DNA of 37,689 nt from positions 1-37,689 of the forward strand of contig JAUVLU010000025.1 of assembly GCA_030600585.1 (NCBI GenBank), read 5' to 3'. How positions within the stretch are numbered: the stretch's first letter is position 1; each line of letters begins with the position of its first letter. Positions 26,431 to 35,978 of the stretch are shown one piece after another. Position numbers and translations under genes: made by a program. Source of the stretch: Candidatus Cloacimonadota bacterium (GTDB taxonomy: Bacteria > Cloacimonadota > Cloacimonadia > Cloacimonadales > TCS61). The notes under the pieces were generated by a model that did no database searches, was not told the DNA's origin, and saw only the letters and a list, made by a program, of their open reading frames with translations.

Positions 26431-26478
26431 GCTAACTTAGACTGGGATTTGATTAGGTATCGATGCATTTTAAGATTC
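26431..26478. repeat. Imperfect direct repeat at the end of abiEii
   Basis: This segment, sharing GCTAA, GGGATTTG, TTA-GTAT and CATT-AAGA blocks, aligns with 28040-28088 in the same orientation. Both copies cover the last codons and immediate 3' flank of a gene (abiEii here, mcrC there). Confidence 0.55.
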
Positions 26479-27340
26479 CTATTAATTTATCTTCTGTAAT
26501 TTTCTTGAAAAAATCTTCTGACCAAATATCCAAAGCTTCATGGTTGTTTATAAATGGTAAAACATCATTCTTTGCCTTTTGAAAATTTATCTCTGAAAAT
26601 TTGTTCAAAAGCATTTGAATTAACATTTCTCTGTTTAATATTTCTCCATCCTTCAAATGTTTTGTTTGTTTCATTCGATTAGAAAGATGAGATAAATCAA
26701 CTTTAATATTTTTGGATAAATACCAAATATAATCATAGAAATCTCTACCTTTTACTCTATTTCCCCATTTTCTGTATAAAAGAGCATGAATCTTACCCGC
26801 AAAAAGTGATGATGCAGAAAACAATCTTACAGAATAAGGTATTGGATTTAATTGATACTTAACTTCATACTCAGCCCCAGAAGGTGGGTTTGTATCCACT
26901 TCTAACTTAATTTTAATTTGTTCGTCAGCATGTACTCCTGTGATTAGATCCTTAATGGAATTAATTTTAAGTAAATTAATTTCGGTCCCACCTTTAATAA
27001 ATGCTGATTTAATTGCTGTATCAAACGATTTTACCTTTTCCTCAACTGTCATTTTAAAACCATAAGCACCTAATTCATTTTGAATATATTTTAAATGTTT
27101 TGATAAATTAAAATCATTATTGGGAGAAAGCAAGCTAAAGTCTAAATCTTCTGAAAAACGGTCTAATCCGTAAAAAATTCTTAAGGCAGTTCCACCATAA
27201 AAAGCAGCATTATTATAAAACCCTGAACGGAATAAACCTAGGAGAGCAATTTCCTGAACAATCTCTTTCAAAGCATTCTTATGATCATCAATACTCTTTG
27301 GTTTGTATTTCTCTAACATTAATTCAATTGCACTATGCAT
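26453..27340 (-). CDS. abiEii: AbiEii-type nucleotidyltransferase toxin
   Basis: A predicted type IV toxin of the AbiE system: a DNA-polymerase-beta-like nucleotidyltransferase that blocks growth, in known cases by modifying tRNA. It has 295 aa. The core is GGTALR (49-54) followed by RFSEDLDF (61-68), where D65 and D67 should bind metal. Downstream RDFYDYIWYL is another family landmark. The ATG has a GAGG site and overlaps the antitoxin stop by 8 nt, so translation is coupled. It is probably a phage-defence module. Confidence 0.9.
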   Translation of the reverse strand: MHSAIELMLEKYKPKSIDDHKNALKEIVQEIALLGLFRSGFYNNAAFYGGTALRIFYGLDRFSEDLDFSLLSPNNDFNLSKHLKYIQNELGAYGFKMTVEEKVKSFDTAIKSAFIKGGTEINLLKINSIKDLITGVHADEQIKIKLEVDTNPPSGAEYEVKYQLNPIPYSVRLFSASSLFAGKIHALLYRKWGNRVKGRDFYDYIWYLSKNIKVDLSHLSNRMKQTKHLKDGEILNREMLIQMLLNKFSEINFQKAKNDVLPFINNHEALDIWSEDFFKKITEDKLIGILKCIDT

Positions 27341-27932
27341 AATTACCTCTTTTTTTTAACCATTCTCCAAATAGATTACAAATTTTTCTCTCATATAAGG
27401 GAAGAAGAAGTTGAAAAGATTTTCTGTTAAGATTTTCCATAACATCAAAATCAATTCTCCAATCCTCAACTAATAAACTGACCAGCTCTCCTTCAGTTGT
27501 TATATCCCTTACTTTATACAATGAATCACAAATTGCTTTTTCTGGGCTTGCTATAATAAATTTTTGTCCGTTTTCTTCTTTAATAGTTATAGCATATGGA
27601 AAAACTTTCGTTGGTATGTAATAATAATAGAAATCACCAATTGGTGTATTAAATTCTTTATTTTTATTTTTATTATAAGAAGCACACGTTATAACCTTCA
27701 CTCTTTCCGGTATGATCCCATAAAAAGACATTGCGCTTTGAAATGATATGTATGACGGTCCATATATTACTGACGATAAACTATTCAGAGAATACGTATC
27801 ATCATTGGCATCTACAAAGATCCCACGTTTAACTTGAATAATCTTTTTTGTATTAATCATTCGTGTAATTTTAGCTTTTGGTGACGAATATTGCTTTAAT
27901 TCTTCTACTAATTGCAAATGACTCTTAAACAT
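27333..27932 (-). CDS. abiEi: AbiEi-type antitoxin / transcriptional regulator
   Basis: It has 199 aa and is the cognate antitoxin of the AbiE pair. The N-terminal winged-helix region (about 1-50) ends in VKRGIFV, and the stretch YGPSYISFQSAMSFYGIIPE is characteristic of AbiEi. This family binds its own promoter, so negative autoregulation is expected. GGAGG sits four bases before ATG, and a TTGACT box lies about 45 nt upstream (27974-27979). Confidence 0.88.
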   Translation of the reverse strand: MFKSHLQLVEELKQYSSPKAKITRMINTKKIIQVKRGIFVDANDDTYSLNSLSSVIYGPSYISFQSAMSFYGIIPERVKVITCASYNKNKNKEFNTPIGDFYYYYIPTKVFPYAITIKEENGQKFIIASPEKAICDSLYKVRDITTEGELVSLLVEDWRIDFDVMENLNRKSFQLLLPLYERKICNLFGEWLKKRGNYA

Positions 27933-28039: not shown

Positions 28040-28088
28040 GCTAATTTGAAACGGGATTTGGTTAAGTATTTAGACATTAAGAATTCCT
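28040..28088. repeat. Imperfect direct repeat at the end of mcrC
   Basis: Partner of 26431-26478. The pair brackets the abiE module, with this copy overlapping the mcrC stop. Confidence 0.55.
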
Positions 28089-29380
28089 TTCATTCTGTCT
28101 ACAAATTCACCAATTTTAAAATAACATTCATTGTTAGTATCATTTTTTATCATTTGAATACCATCGACAATAAAATTTGTTGAATTATCATTTAACCAAT
28201 TTACAGAATGTTTTTTTTGAATATCTCCAAAATCTTTTTCAAGCGGATAAAGAAGTCCACCGGCAATTACATCATATTCTTTTTGGTTTTTGAGATAACT
28301 TATATAAGTATTTATTTGAAAGAAATCACTTCTATCAAAATCAGATTTAATAAAACTCATTTTCTTCCATTTTGCATCAAATACTACAATTTTATTTCCT
28401 TTCTTCATTATAATGTCAGGACGGATTGATCGTTTATAAAATTGATCTTGATAGACGGAATATTTTTTTTGAGTTAAAATCTTCCAATCTGAGAAATTGT
28501 CTTTTATAATTCGTACTAAATATAATTCCCAGATTTCAGCCATATCAATAAATAAGCCAAAACTGTTTTTACTTCCAGAATTTGAATCAAAAAATGCTGA
28601 TTTATTATTGATGACTAGCCAAGATAAATCGACCACCTTTTTAAAAGAAATATATATTGATTTGTACTTTATTTTTTTATACTCAGATTCTGAAATTTTT
28701 CTGAAAGGAATTTCATTCGTTTTGAGATGATTTATTGCATCATTTGCAGAATCGGAGGGAATTGACAGAAAATTTTTTGATAGAATTTTGTAAGCTTGAG
28801 AAAGAATTTGAAAGATTGTTTCATCAAAATGCTTCATGTAATACTCAGAAACAATATTTTTATTATGAAAGAATGGCTTCATTGATTCTCTTACATTTAA
28901 TCTTCCCTTTAATACAAATCCTTTAAAAGTTTTTCTTATGTTGGTTCTCGGTAATCCAAATCTATTGGCATCAGCTAGCTGTTTTAACCAAATCAATCCA
29001 ATAATTTTTTCTACCCAAGTTTCCTCTTTTGTGTTTTCTTTGCCTGTTTTGTTTTTAGGAATTTTGATATTATGAATTGTTTCTAACATTTTTATCAAAG
29101 AGGTATCACCAAAACGAGGAGAAATTTCAACATTTATGAAATGTTTTTCAAAGAGGAAAGTCATTTTTCCAATGTACCTTCCCGCAATCCAACTGTTTTG
29201 CTTATAATCAAATAAAGCTACAGGTTCATCATCTTTATCATTTTTTGCAAACTTTAAATAACAGTTTTTACTTTGTGTGATAAACTCTTCAATTATTTTG
29301 CTGAGATTATTTTCTCCTGTTTTCGTTTTTATTTCATCAAATGGAGAGCAATCTTTTGCTTTTAAATCCCATTTCGTCAT
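28070..29380 (-). CDS. mcrC: McrC-like nuclease subunit of a McrBC restriction system
   Basis: McrC supplies the endonuclease of modification-dependent McrBC restriction and stimulates McrB GTPase. It has 436 aa. The PD-(D/E)xK site is D322 in RPDII and D335/K337 in VVFDAKWKK; the 13- and 2-residue spacings equal those of E. coli McrC. The ATG overlaps the mcrB stop by one base (TAATG). The protein looks intact, but without a whole McrB partner it may be inactive. Confidence 0.9.
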   Translation of the reverse strand: MTKWDLKAKDCSPFDEIKTKTGENNLSKIIEEFITQSKNCYLKFAKNDKDDEPVALFDYKQNSWIAGRYIGKMTFLFEKHFINVEISPRFGDTSLIKMLETIHNIKIPKNKTGKENTKEETWVEKIIGLIWLKQLADANRFGLPRTNIRKTFKGFVLKGRLNVRESMKPFFHNKNIVSEYYMKHFDETIFQILSQAYKILSKNFLSIPSDSANDAINHLKTNEIPFRKISESEYKKIKYKSIYISFKKVVDLSWLVINNKSAFFDSNSGSKNSFGLFIDMAEIWELYLVRIIKDNFSDWKILTQKKYSVYQDQFYKRSIRPDIIMKKGNKIVVFDAKWKKMSFIKSDFDRSDFFQINTYISYLKNQKEYDVIAGGLLYPLEKDFGDIQKKHSVNWLNDNSTNFIVDGIQMIKNDTNNECYFKIGEFVDRMKGILNV

Positions 29381-31155
29381 TATTTTTTACCTAAGAATAT
29401 TTCTGCAAACTTATTAAGCTTTTCCTCTTTCTTTTCTTTATCCAGATTTCCACAATATGCTTCTAACATTGGTTTTATTGAAATATTCCATAAAACATTA
29501 ACAGGTCCTTTAGCAGTAGAGAACTTATTATTTGATTTTACAAAGAGAGATATGCTATTCATACTTTTAACAATATCAACAATCTCAGTAAAAAAAGTGT
29601 GCCCAATTTCCCACTCTTTTCCAAATTCTTCATCTTTTTCTAGTTTGTGATTTAATTTAGAAGACCTTTTTATAAACTCATCGAGATGGTCCGCCTTGAA
29701 GGAAATTTTATTCATTTCGCATTTATACTTGATAATCTCTCTTAATCTAATATTATCATATCCATAAAAATACCAAACAAACCTTCATCGTAATGCAAAA
29801 TCGATTCGTTCAAGAGAAAAATCTATTTTGTTCATTGTTCCGATGAAATATAAGTTCTCTGGAACTCTAAGTTGACAGAATTTTTCAAATTCAGGATCAT
29901 CCTTATCGATAGCAGAAAGGGCAACTGCCTCATCTCGATTCTCAATTGCAGAAAATAATTCCCCGAATAGTCTACTCAAATCAATTCTATTAATTTCATC
30001 AAGAATTATTACATAGGGTAAATTATCCTCTTTATTATTGGAGATTTCATCTATTTTCTTAAGAAGATATCCTTTTTCCCATTTTGTTTTATTTTCTTCT
30101 ATTTTCATTCCTACAATAAAATCTTCATAACTGTAATTTGGATGAAGTTGAAGGTTTAATATTCTTTTTTTGTATTCCTTTTCAAAATTCATTAGAAATA
30201 CATCAGAAATATTTTTTTGTTTTATGCATTCTTGTCTAATGAGTATTTTTGCTAATTGATTTGCATTATATGTTTTGCTTGTCCCTGGCGGACCATATAA
30301 AATGATCTGTTTTTTATATTTAAGAGCCTCTAGCTCAGAAAAACTTGTGTTAGATCCAATTCCTTTAAAGTTCCAAAAGGTACCAATAGGATCATCATAC
30401 CAAGAAAAATCCTCTTTCAAAATTTGTTTTTTTTTAACTGATAGATACTTTAATAATTCCTGTTTTATCAAGTATATTTGTTTATCAACGGTTAAACCTG
30501 ATTTATCTTCAGATTCAATAAGTTTCGAAAAGACTTCAGTAATCGATTTTTTATGACTATAATTTGCAATTGGAACATAATTTTCAGGATCACTTAAATG
30601 TAATAAGATATTTTGAGTAGCTATTGCTTTTTCAGATGGATACTTCAACTCATCAGAATTCTCTCTATCTTTAATAATATATTCTATGATAGAATTTTTG
30701 CATTCAGTAATACTTGCACAATTAGTTGAAAATAAATATTCAAAAAGTGCAATTATAAATTTTATTTCATGATATTTGTTTGTCTTATGATATTGACCAG
30801 CAGATAAAATGGTATCTTCAGTAAAAAATTTATCTTCTAAATCTGTAATACCTAAAAATTCTTTTATTTGTCCTTTTTTGGTTCTCAACGTTATGTCACC
30901 AACAGCAAATGACCAAAGCCATAATGCATGTGCAAAAATCAGTTTTGTATATTGGTCTGTTTTATTAAACTGCTCTTTAGACTTATCCATAAAATCTCTG
31001 TCTTTTTCTTCATTATAATTCTTAATAAATGCTTCAATTGCGCTTTCTACCATATTAGTTGTTAGAATCTTATCATGTAATACTTTTATAAATGATTTTT
31101 TACTTATAATAAATTGATCTAAAAACTCGTTAAATAAATCATAAACATTAGCCAT
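29380..31155 (-). pseudogene. mcrB: McrB-like GTPase, split by an in-frame UGA
   Basis: McrB is the GTP-driven AAA+ motor that recognises modified DNA. The first 456 codons hold an unrecognised N-terminal domain (about 1-270), Walker A GPPGTSKT (288-295), Walker B VIILDEINR (382-390) and the GTMNKIDFSLERIDFALR stretch. Then comes TGA (29787-29785). The same frame stays open for 134 more codons to TAA at 29382-29380, beginning RFVWYFYGYD and containing LWNISIKPMLEAY, both typical of the McrB C-terminus. Families have ALRRRF here, so a CGA-to-TGA change explains the break. The internal ATG at 29715 has no ribosome-binding site. GGAGG precedes the mcrB ATG. Confidence 0.88.
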
Positions 31156-31186: not shown

Positions 31187-31447
31187 TCACTTCCCATAAA
31201 AATCACTAATATCAAAATAAAATTCAAACTCATTTCCTTTAGAATCTTGAATTAGGAATTTGTCAAAATATTTATATTTACCCGGAATCAATGATTGCTG
31301 AATAAACTTCCAGTCAATATTGGGAATACCGAATTTTTCTTCTAAGTATTCATATTCTGCTGCTACACCTTCTTCGGTATTCTCTGCACCAGTAATTACA
31401 ATTGTATCCTCAAATGAGGTTCCAGAATTATCAGATAATGTTATCAT
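31187..31447 (-). CDS. Small conserved-type protein, 86 aa, function unknown
   Basis: I use ATG 31447, 7 nt after GGAG, rather than the TTG two codons earlier. The product is acidic with a beta-rich pattern and the features EYEYLEEKFG, DWKFIQQSL, KYFDKF and FDISDFYGK at the C-terminus. A second, broken copy lies at 35069-35329, about two thirds identical by eye and alike at DNA level. I recall similar small proteins in other environmental genomes but know no function. It lies 31 nt before mcrB and may share its transcript. Confidence 0.75.
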   Translation of the reverse strand: MITLSDNSGTSFEDTIVITGAENTEEGVAAEYEYLEEKFGIPNIDWKFIQQSLIPGKYKYFDKFLIQDSKGNEFEFYFDISDFYGK

Positions 31448-31461
31448 ACACAAACTCCAAA

Positions 31462-31770
31462 TTATATTTTTGCTTTTCCGCTTATAACTTCATTATCATC
31501 GATTTCAATTAATAGGTCATATTCCGAATATTTATCTTTAAGTTCATTCAATCGGATAGTCATATCATTCTTAAAAGCAAATTTAACCCATGTGAAATCT
31601 TGATCTTGACCATAATTACCTCCAACATCAACTGAATCTGTACCAATTTCCCACTTTATCGGTTTCTCACCAAAGATTTCTTCTGGATCAATATCTGCTA
31701 AAAAATTCTCTAAATTACTAATATGACAATATTGAATAATGCCTGTAAAAGTCTCTTTTTTCACTTCCAT
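31462..31770 (-). CDS. Hypothetical acidic protein, 102 aa
   Basis: No family is recognised. The protein is acidic with alternating strands and helices (GNYGQDQDFTWVKFAF, DLLIEIDDNEVISGKAKI). There is no signal peptide or membrane segment. GGAG lies 7 nt before ATG, and the stop is 14 nt before the next gene's ATG, supporting cotranscription. Size and charge would fit an immunity or antitoxin protein, but that is only a guess. Confidence 0.65.
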   Translation of the reverse strand: MEVKKETFTGIIQYCHISNLENFLADIDPEEIFGEKPIKWEIGTDSVDVGGNYGQDQDFTWVKFAFKNDMTIRLNELKDKYSEYDLLIEIDDNEVISGKAKI

Positions 31771-31819
31771 TTCATTACTCCTAATTTTTCAATCTTGTAC
31801 TTTACACAATGACTTTGAA

Positions 31820-32035
31820 TCAGTTTTCAATTCTGTTTTTATTCTTTAGTTCTTCTTTCTCTTCTTTTTGTTTGTTTAATAGATACTCATCTAGGTCTGA
31901 ATAAGCTTTATCAATTTTATCAAGTTTCTTGGCTAATTCTGGATTCTTTTTGCGAAAACCCTTAATTATATTATCAGCTTGTCTCTGCTTAATATTCTCA
32001 AAAAACTTTTCAATGAAGTTATCTATTTTACTCAT
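31820..32035 (-). CDS. Hypothetical small helical protein, 71 aa
   Basis: A highly charged, all-helical product (FIEKFFENIKQRQADNIIKG, then lysine/glutamate-rich). It has AGG at suitable spacing before ATG. It resembles small coiled-coil proteins and has no recognised family. Confidence 0.6.
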   Translation of the reverse strand: MSKIDNFIEKFFENIKQRQADNIIKGFRKKNPELAKKLDKIDKAYSDLDEYLLNKQKEEKEELKNKNRIEN

Positions 32036-32053
32036 TTTATACCTATCATTTAT

Positions 32054-32365
32054 TTAAATTTCATCATTAAAGTTATTCATGGTAAAATTCACAAATGTGT
32101 ATCCTTTAACAGATCTATTTATCCTTAATTCAATCTCCTTATCTATGAATTTGAGTGTCCTGATCAGTTTTTCAATCACATCATCACTCAATTTCTCTGC
32201 TTCTGTTTCAGTAAATATTATGCTTTGTGCTATGTGACCATCCCATGACCAGACCTGGAACAAAGCTTCATAATTACCAAGTTCAACAATATGTTCTGAT
32301 AATATCTTTGTCTCATTATCTAATGGTACATTTTTAAATCTATCGTTCAAAATTTTCTCCCTCAT
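32054..32365 (-). CDS. Hypothetical protein, up to 103 aa
   Basis: No family is recognised. The middle part (ALFQVWSWDGHIAQSIIF) looks like buried strands, followed by helices. The ATG at 32365 lacks a ribosome-binding site. A TTG five codons later (32350) has GAGGGAG 6 nt ahead and is the likelier start. It lies 18 nt before the 71-aa gene. Confidence 0.6.
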   Translation of the reverse strand: MREKILNDRFKNVPLDNETKILSEHIVELGNYEALFQVWSWDGHIAQSIIFTETEAEKLSDDVIEKLIRTLKFIDKEIELRINRSVKGYTFVNFTMNNFNDEI

Positions 32366-32546
32366 GCAATAATAAAAAAATAATCAAACTAAGTATCCTG
32401 AACAATTAGCATCTAATATCCAAATTATTTAAGCATTCTAACACAGAAGCATAGTTTATGTATCTGAAGATTATTAAATACCAGCACCCGTTTCAGTTTT
32501 CATATCTCTTTTATAAAGTTTCATTCTATAATAATTAATAACAATA

Positions 32547-32933
32547 TTATTCAAATGTAACTTTATACTTTTTTAGAAGTTTGTATATATTCTCTTCACA
32601 TACTCTATCTGCGTCATTAGTGTAACAAAATGACTCGTACATTTGTTGAAATCTTTCGTGAAGTTCAGCATCTTTCCCCTTACTCAGAAGTCTCAAATAA
32701 ACCAGTCCTTTCCCATAACAATTAGGGCAGAATTTCGCTTTATGTGCAGTTTCCTCAACAGCATTTATACATAAATGGTATTCTTTTTCTGGTAAAGCCC
32801 TAATAAAATTTAATGCCTTGATGTAATCCTCTAGTTGAGCAGAACTATTTTTAAAAGGATGATGAGCATAGAAACCATTATTAATAATTAATTTTATTTC
32901 TTCACTTATTTTCACTTCTTTACCCAGACTCAT
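32547..32933 (-). CDS. Hypothetical cysteine-containing protein, 128 aa
   Basis: One CPNCYGKG motif (C69, C72) resembles half of a DnaJ-type zinc knuckle; other cysteines (C55, C107, C115) might complete a metal site. Helical prediction dominates. AGGAG precedes ATG. The function is unknown, and no known partner is adjacent. A 181-bp gap with no gene I can support separates it from the next gene. Confidence 0.65.
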   Translation of the reverse strand: MSLGKEVKISEEIKLIINNGFYAHHPFKNSSAQLEDYIKALNFIRALPEKEYHLCINAVEETAHKAKFCPNCYGKGLVYLRLLSKGKDAELHERFQQMYESFCYTNDADRVCEENIYKLLKKYKVTFE

Positions 32934-33034
32934 AAATTCTCCTGATTTAATAAGCAGTATCTTGTATTATTAAAACCACAATCAATACTAGAATAAATTA
33001 TTTTCATTTATTAGCTATCTTACTTATAAAGTAA

Positions 33035-34720
33035 TTATTCTGAACCATATTTTTCTTTGAGATACTTGCGTACATCACCTTCTTCGCTAGGGTCAAGATT
33101 CTGCTCCCGCATATCATTTCTGATAACTTTCAAGTCTACAGTTTCGCACTTACCTTTAATGATTACATACAAATGATAATCAGAATCCACTCCACTACCT
33201 TGCCAACATTCATCACTCTCAAAATCGTCTCCGTCTTCACCTTGATAAGAATAACCCTCCACAACTCTTTCAAATTCTACTTTAATTTTATTAGCATCGA
33301 ATTCATATTCAAGTTCGATCGTGTATTTCTCCCAGTCTTTCCAGCCATCATCGAAACCGTAAAACATTATTGTTAATGAAACAAATGTTCCATTTTTTTC
33401 ATTAGCAGCATATGATTCCAGTTCTTGTTTTTCAGCATTCTTTGAATTGGTCTCAATTTCGATGCTACTCTTAGTCCCATCCGGATATTGAATATGAGTT
33501 GCAGGATCTTCTTTTCCAAAATACGAATAATATGATGAGTATTCTTCATCACTTTCATAGGCGAATTCACTCCAAACCCCATTGTCTACTATTGCTTTAA
33601 TAATATCTTCTAATGTAACTGTTCCACATGCTCCGTCACTATAACTACCCCCCTCATCATGGCCAATGGTATATTTATCTTTCTGAACTGGATATTTGTT
33701 AATATCAGTGAGCAGTTTATTAATTATCTTTTTACATTTCTCATCACAGTTAGGGTTCTTAAGAATTCCTTTCAGAATATATCGATCACCTGTTTTAATC
33801 AGTTCGGATATCCGGGACTTATCAATCTCAGGATGTGATGCAGCCGTTTCTCTTACCCAGCGATAATCATCGGTGATAAGTTTTTCTATTACCGATCTGC
33901 TTGTCTGATGATCAGTTGCAATTTCCTTTTTTCTCAGGGAAAAATTATATCCTCCAAGTTTACTTTTATCTCCATCTTGTACTAAACTTGCATATTGTTT
34001 AATCAGATATGCCCAGGCTTTATCTTCCAATTCTTCTTCTAATTTCTTTGAAAACCAACATACATCTCCATAAGATTTACTAAAATTTTCTAGTAATTTT
34101 TTCTCTGCTTTTTTATAAAGTTTACGTATCCAAGTTTTATCACAAAGTGTATCATCTTTTGCAATGAATTCTGCTACATACATATACTCCTGAGTATCTT
34201 CAGCTAATTCCTCAGCTTCTTTGTAAAGTTTACGTGCCCAAGTTTTATCACAAACTGTATCATCTTTTGCAATGGATTCTGCTACCCACCTATATTCATG
34301 AGTATTTTCAGCTAATTCCTCAGCTTTTTCATAAAGTTCAATTGCCCATGTTTTATCACCTAAGTAATCATTATTTGCTACTAACTCAGCAATTTTTACA
34401 CAGTTAAAACACGGTCTAGATGTATTATTCACGTTTTCTACTGTTTTTTTAAATAATTCACGTGCCCAGTTTTTGTCACCTAAACAATCATTATCTGCTA
34501 CGGATACTGCTATATCCGTGAAGTTTTGTGAATACTTTGTCAACTCTACAGCTTTTTTAAATAATTCACGTGCCCAAGTTTTATCACCTAAATAATCATT
34601 ATCTGCTACTGACACTGCTAGTTGTCTGTAATCATAAGATGTATTGGCCAATTCTTCTCGCTTTTTAAATTCTTTAATCTTGTTTGCTTTTATGTCATTA
34701 ATATTGGTATTATCAACCAT
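33035..34720 (-). CDS. Large solenoid-type repeat protein, 561 aa, function unknown
   Basis: Five 36-40-residue repeats start at about residues 39, 75, 115, 151 and 187, each reading A-x-D/N-D-x-L/V-x-DK-x-WA-x-x-L-Y/F-x-x-A-E (for example NDYLGDKTWARELFKKA). A weak sixth lies near 228. They should form a TPR/Sel1-like helical solenoid. Residues about 275-330 (DDYRWVRETAASHPEID) resemble HEAT or leucine-rich-variant repeats. The C-terminal 190 residues are acidic, with strands and glycine-rich loops, and match nothing I know. There is no signal peptide. GGAG precedes ATG. It is first in a co-directional set of small genes leading to mcrBC. A scaffold or binding role is an inference. Confidence 0.78.
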   Translation of the reverse strand: MVDNTNINDIKANKIKEFKKREELANTSYDYRQLAVSVADNDYLGDKTWARELFKKAVELTKYSQNFTDIAVSVADNDCLGDKNWARELFKKTVENVNNTSRPCFNCVKIAELVANNDYLGDKTWAIELYEKAEELAENTHEYRWVAESIAKDDTVCDKTWARKLYKEAEELAEDTQEYMYVAEFIAKDDTLCDKTWIRKLYKKAEKKLLENFSKSYGDVCWFSKKLEEELEDKAWAYLIKQYASLVQDGDKSKLGGYNFSLRKKEIATDHQTSRSVIEKLITDDYRWVRETAASHPEIDKSRISELIKTGDRYILKGILKNPNCDEKCKKIINKLLTDINKYPVQKDKYTIGHDEGGSYSDGACGTVTLEDIIKAIVDNGVWSEFAYESDEEYSSYYSYFGKEDPATHIQYPDGTKSSIEIETNSKNAEKQELESYAANEKNGTFVSLTIMFYGFDDGWKDWEKYTIELEYEFDANKIKVEFERVVEGYSYQGEDGDDFESDECWQGSGVDSDYHLYVIIKGKCETVDLKVIRNDMREQNLDPSEEGDVRKYLKEKYGSE

Positions 34721-35068: not shown

Positions 35069-35329
35069 TCACTTCCCATAAAACTCACTAATATCAAAAT
35101 AAACTTCAAACACATTTCCTTTTTTATCCTGTAGCAGAATTTTGTCAAAATATTTATTTTTACCAAGAATCAATGATTGCCTGATGAATTTCCAGTCAAC
35201 CTCTGGAATATCACATTTACTTTTTAAATATTCATATTCTGTTGCAACCCTTTATTTTGTGCTTTGTGCGCCTTTTATTATAATTACATCCTTAAACGAT
35301 CTACCGGTATTATCCGACAATGTTATCAT
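35069..35329 (-). pseudogene. Broken second copy of the 86-aa gene
   Basis: It matches the intact gene at 31187-31447 along its whole length: same start (MITLSDN), same end (FDIS-FYGK) and a GGAGG site ahead of ATG. Codon 26 is TAA (35254-35252), where the intact copy has a Glu codon, a one-base change. The 60 codons after it stay open, so inactivation looks recent. It is the last island gene before the truncated deacetylase. Confidence 0.85.
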
Positions 35330-35372
35330 ATTCCACCTCCAAATCCTATTGTTTTAGTTCTTCCAAAACTGG

Positions 35373-35978
35373 ATGTATCTTCCAGTTCACAATATTTTAT
35401 CAAATCTTTCTGGTGGTTATCATCATGCGAAAAGTAACCATGGAGAAGGTTTCTGCTTTTTTGCAGATATACCATTATCAATTAAAAGTATCTGGCAGAA
35501 GCATCCTAAGCTAAGAATATTGATCATCGATCTGGATGCACACCAAGGAAATGGCTGTTCAAGCATTTTAGGAAAAGATAAAAGAGTAGCAATTCTTGAT
35601 ATGTATAATACGGTTATTTTTCCAAGAGATAGAAATGCAGAAAAACTTGTTTCATATAAAGTCGCTTTATGCAGAAAAACAAGAGACAAAATTTATTTAG
35701 AGAAATTAAATTCAATGTTGTCAAAAGCTTTAGATGAGCATAAACCTAATGTAATAATTTATAATGCAGGTACAGATGTTTATGTTGAGGACCCGCTAGG
35801 TGGTTTGAATATTTCTGAACAAGGAATTATTAACCGTGATGAGATTGTTTTCAAGGCAGCTTCAGACAACAAAGTTCCAATTCTAATGTTACTTTCTGGA
35901 GGTTATCATAAAAGATCTGGAGATATCGTTGGAAGATCAATTGTTAAAATGATTCAAAAAGGGATATTGAATTATTAA
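35373..35978 (+). pseudogene. 5'-truncated histone-deacetylase-family protein
   Basis: The remaining 201 codons carry the C-terminal two thirds of a zinc deacetylase: NLSGGYHHAKS with the catalytic His pair, the metal ligands in DLDAHQGNG, YNAGTDVYVEDPLGGL, and the final LLSGGYHKRS. The usual first 90-100 residues are missing. The frame opens after TAG at 35355, and the ATG at 35373 has no ribosome-binding site. This is the only rightward gene in the region and directly abuts the island's right edge. Such enzymes act on acetylated small molecules or proteins. It is probably dead; a shorter active form is unlikely. Confidence 0.82.

Follow-up and report, generated by a model that had tools for sequence, protein, structure and literature searches.

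The mcrB gene of a McrBC restriction operon in this Candidatus Cloacimonadota genome is interrupted by one in-frame TGA, and we consider it highly probable (roughly 85%) that a recent, single-base nonsense mutation inactivated the gene, which would belong to a horizontally acquired operon in a decaying defence island. In the window, by which we mean the whole 37,689-nucleotide stretch of DNA that was analysed, the mcrB frame spans 591 codons on the minus strand (29383..31155). It opens with an ATG at 31155 and runs for 456 codons to the TGA at codon 457 (29785..29787, minus strand, which is TCA on the plus strand), after which a further 134 sense codons, encoding the arginine finger and the C-terminal part of McrB, lead to a terminal TAA that shares one base with the ATG of mcrC (TAATG); these codons and the TAA together occupy 29380..29784 (minus strand). 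Re-reading of the sequence bore out the coordinates and codon numbers given by a first-pass annotation. As the frame is continuous through the site, a frameshift is not needed as an explanation and was ruled out. The openness of the frame beyond the TGA cannot be put down to chance, because the probability of 134 codons staying open at the local A+T content is approximately 9e-7 and the two other forward frames contain 10 and 20 stops across the same stretch; the residues encoded there show 35–38% similarity to full-length relatives, no less than the N-terminal 270 residues do (32–37%). In a survey of 331 kb of the genome, pairs of coding frames lying in the same frame, with 50 codons or more in each, showed no mid-gene in-frame stop other than the mcrB TGA.

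The identity of the gene is clear in its AAA+ core, which aligns with the chains of E. coli McrB (E 4e-24; structures 6hz4 and 6ut6). The protein matches AAA_5 over the cut-off and NCBIfam PRK11331 at E 8e-26, yet below the equivalog cut-off, and its N-terminal domain has no Pfam match. The adjoining mcrC (28070..29380, minus strand) is intact and encodes 436 aa that match Pfam McrBC (PF10117) at E 2.6e-36. This arrangement resembles the type IV McrBC systems of E. coli and Thermococcus gammatolerans, in which a gene for the AAA+ motor precedes an overlapping gene for the McrC nuclease; shared too are the AAA+ core and the ALRRRF motif with sensor 2 and the arginine finger. It departs from them in having a different N-terminal domain, a longer McrB, a consensus loop of the form MNxIDFS rather than MNxxDRS, and a gene cut by a TGA. 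Here the loop is MNKIDFS, with MNEIDFS in each of the three closest relatives; set against the consensus MNxxDRS it keeps the Asn and Asp, which matter for GTPase activity (PMC7680126), but not the Arg. A McrBC system is expected to have an uninterrupted McrB with both the sensor-2 arginine and the arginine finger, and at this locus the sensor-2 codon is a TGA. Judged by its sequence, the protein is a McrB and the locus is a broken, presumably non-functional, member of the McrBC family.

The codon affected carries a heavy functional load. Codon 457 aligns with Arg348 of E. coli McrB, and the next residue, R458 here, with Arg349; Nirwan et al. describe Arg348 as a trans-acting sensor 2 and Arg349 as the arginine finger, and an R348A mutation affected oligomerisation and GTPase activity (PMC6624300). 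The equivalent Thermococcus McrB mutations, R425A and R426A, impair basal GTPase activity and hexamer formation (PMC7680126). The 456-residue product keeps Walker A and B while both arginines and the C-terminal lid are missing, and on the strength of the E. coli and Thermococcus mutants it should be inactive.

Homologues confirm which residue belongs at the site. The first-pass annotation gave ALRRRF as the reading of McrB relatives, and the alignment bears this out: 25 of the 27 alignable rows carry Arg, the middle arginine of that motif, where the TGA stands. A few rows are overlapping loci belonging to a single gene, and the two that differ are remote matches with Asp; no row has Cys. Uninterrupted relatives of ~590–650 residues, with 41–43% identity and Arg at the site, occur in three other genomes, among them a Gracilimonas MAG (L039) with the same mcrB–mcrC order, while the McrB-like proteins found within the phylum of the window were all more distant. 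No stop occurs at this position among the McrB matches of the phylum or the other relatives, none of which is split here. Viral contigs contained neither the mcrB protein nor a match to the TGA site with the codon left open. The first-pass annotation took CGA to TGA as the simplest change; relatives write this arginine with several different codons and do not point to one ancestral codon. On a Sulfurospirillum diekertiae plasmid (NZ_CP045454.1, near 32527–33188), a McrB-like match falls into three pieces across two annotated genes and is possibly another interrupted mcrB-like gene.

UGA is a stop codon in this genome, although not exclusively so. The prfB gene in the window retains the UGA frameshift signal of RF2 (AGGTTACTTTGAC, about 17382), which implies termination at UGA by RF2, and TGA is the terminal stop of 29 of the 154 long frames in the 331 kb sample. 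The sole UCA anticodon among the 40 tRNA genes found is that of tRNA-Sec, and none of these 40 is an Arg or Trp tRNA reading UGA; the list may be incomplete, as it contains no Ile or Ala(UGC) tRNA, genes that usually sit in rRNA operons. Global reassignment of UGA was rejected on the RF2 site, the 29 terminal TGAs and the single UCA anticodon. The first-pass annotation was therefore right to call TGA a real stop, but its dismissal of reassignment skipped local recoding: the host encodes tRNA-Sec (anticodon UCA) with SelB beside it (L040, C80:41574), and its SelD (L097, C15:7500) carries an in-frame TGA where Sec is expected (KAAGU). The bacterium, a member of a small phylum (about 125 genomes in the comparison set), is thus Sec-decoding and recodes some UGA codons, and for this reason selenocysteine had to be tested for mcrB.

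Besides its tRNA-Sec, SelB and UGA-containing SelD, the genome offers the selenocysteine reading, under which the mcrB UGA would be decoded to give a full-length selenoprotein, a potential RNA hairpin whose GGAU loop lies 21 nt 3' of the UGA. The published bacterial SECIS model requires a loop of 3–9 nt with G in the first two positions, placed 16–37 nt past the UGA, and a stem of 4–16 bp with an energy of <= -7.5 kcal/mol (PMC13188914). The hairpin fits this geometry but, at -5.8 to -7.4 kcal/mol, falls short of the energy, and 4.7–9.2% of random TGAs drawn from the same genome equal it; the test is weak both ways, since the genuine selD scores hardly better than mcrB on the same scale. Selenocysteine was rejected mainly on the identity of the residue. 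Nearly all selenoproteins possess Cys homologues (PMC13188914), whereas relatives of mcrB have Arg and never Cys at a site that is a catalytic sensor arginine and not a redox site. The mcrB frame resembles that of the host SelD, each being open but for a UGA in a host that possesses tRNA-Sec and SelB, but Sec lies in the active-site KAAGU of SelD, and the UGA of mcrB lies at what is in relatives a structural and catalytic Arg, with no convincing SECIS; we regard the selenoprotein as very improbable indeed. Hardly more probable is leaky decoding, in which a near-cognate tRNA (Trp or other) would read the UGA-A and so control McrBC dosage or act as an off-switch. UGA followed by A is a leaky stop context in bacteria, and the downstream frame is intact and conserved; against this, readthrough would usually insert a residue other than Arg at an essential position, no relative has a stop there, and the breakage of neighbouring genes by a TAA and by truncation would go unexplained. 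The literature searched, at the level of titles and abstracts, contained no parallel of programmed readthrough for McrBC genes with premature stops. There is only a slim chance that full-length McrB is made solely upon readthrough at the sensor-2 codon, by the Sec machinery or by leaky ribosomes, with restriction gated by translation. Such gating would matter much more than gene decay if it were true, and the evidence is against it. No sign emerged of the reversible off-switch that the first-pass annotation had entertained: neither a repeat nor a slippery run marks the TGA, and the neighbouring genes include a truncated one and an unlinked one broken by a TAA.

Of the competing explanations, the least improbable, though still unlikely, is a consensus error or a mixture of strains, such that cells with a sense codon make up most or part of the population, and the base in the assembly is either an error or a minority variant. 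The genome is a draft of 89 contigs, the rest of mcrBC is intact, and a mixed population would be expected to show just such a single substitution; however, the island holds two further damaged genes, and in one the cause is a rearrangement, which no base-call error would produce, and the lack of any other mid-gene stop in 331 kb argues that the assembly is not error-rich. Substitution errors are rare in assembled consensus sequences, and the TGA is probably real. We also considered a split gene, whose C-terminal 111 codons would restart at ATG 29715, an in-frame codon about 70 nt 3' of the TGA, and complement the N-terminal fragment. No clear ribosome-binding site precedes this ATG, the restart would leave out R458, the arginine finger, together with some 22 residues, and no relative is split at the site; this candidate was rejected on the last two grounds and is as improbable as selenocysteine.

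The surroundings of the operon suggest a decaying defence island. McrC was absent from all 39 genomes of the genus and family that were searched, which suggests that the operon is a sporadic acquisition, and the mcrB segment is A+T-rich (29% G+C against 34%). Upstream of mcrB lies an intact 86-codon gene whose function was not recognised (31187..31447, minus strand). A second copy (35069..35329, minus strand), 3.9 kb from the first and 5 kb from mcrB, is interrupted only by an in-frame TAA, codon 26 (35252–35254); the two copies have 77% DNA identity and agree in 59 of 86 residues. TAA cannot be a Sec codon. At the edge of the segment, a histone-deacetylase-like gene (35373..35978, plus strand) has no 5' third: three homologues from the same genus, of 317–333 codons, align to the window from exactly 35403 onward. 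At the junction (35353–35403), island DNA replaces the 5' third of the gene, and a homologue elsewhere in the genome (C41:10404) lies within a 348-codon open frame. The TAA-broken duplicate and the 5'-truncated gene point to decay of the island. Other contents of the region include a pair of AbiEi/AbiEii toxin–antitoxin type downstream of mcrC (26453–27932); in Gracilimonas, the DNA upstream of mcrBC may, judged from its translations, likewise encode an AbiEi-like protein and a nucleotidyltransferase. Between 33035 and 34720 the window encodes a 561-aa protein of tandem repeats of ~36 residues (a periodicity of 108 nt) with a weak TPR match; together with nearby small genes of unrecognised role (31462–32933), it possibly forms an immunity or effector-associated cluster. 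An Rfam scan of the window returned tRNA-Thr only.

The nonsense mutation remains the best-supported of the options raised in the first-pass annotation, on the intact downstream frame, the arginine of relatives and the broken island genes. With intact homologues elsewhere, a single premature stop and retained downstream homology, mcrB has the character of a nonsense pseudogene. By this account, a one-base change would have created a TGA at the sensor-2 codon, the resulting 456-residue fragment would not assemble into the hexamer whose GTP hydrolysis drives the McrC nuclease, the system would be switched off, and the loss of mcrB would be one episode in the ordinary erosion of a defence island that is dispensable. 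A little full-length McrB may still be made by leakage, probably with the wrong residue at the site. Neither mcrB nor mcrC contains a second disabling change, which would place the event below about 1% neutral divergence; this bound takes evolution to be neutral once the stop had arisen, with frameshifts occurring at 5% of the substitution rate, and would fail if mcrC were kept for another reason. We infer from it that the loss of McrBC activity is recent.

A known counterpart is the W45stop allele of dcm described for ER2796 (PMC4444293), where a single premature stop likewise interrupts a non-essential, otherwise intact member of the methylation and restriction group of genes; the mcrB described here differs in coming from an environmental draft genome without strain history. 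We take the finding as confirmed but ordinary; the only thing unusual about it is the Sec-decoding host. Read as an ordinary nonsense pseudogene, mcrB records how a costly restriction system of horizontal origin decayed at the codon where it is most sensitive, and it cautions that an annotation of McrBC need not mean a working system in the genome concerned.
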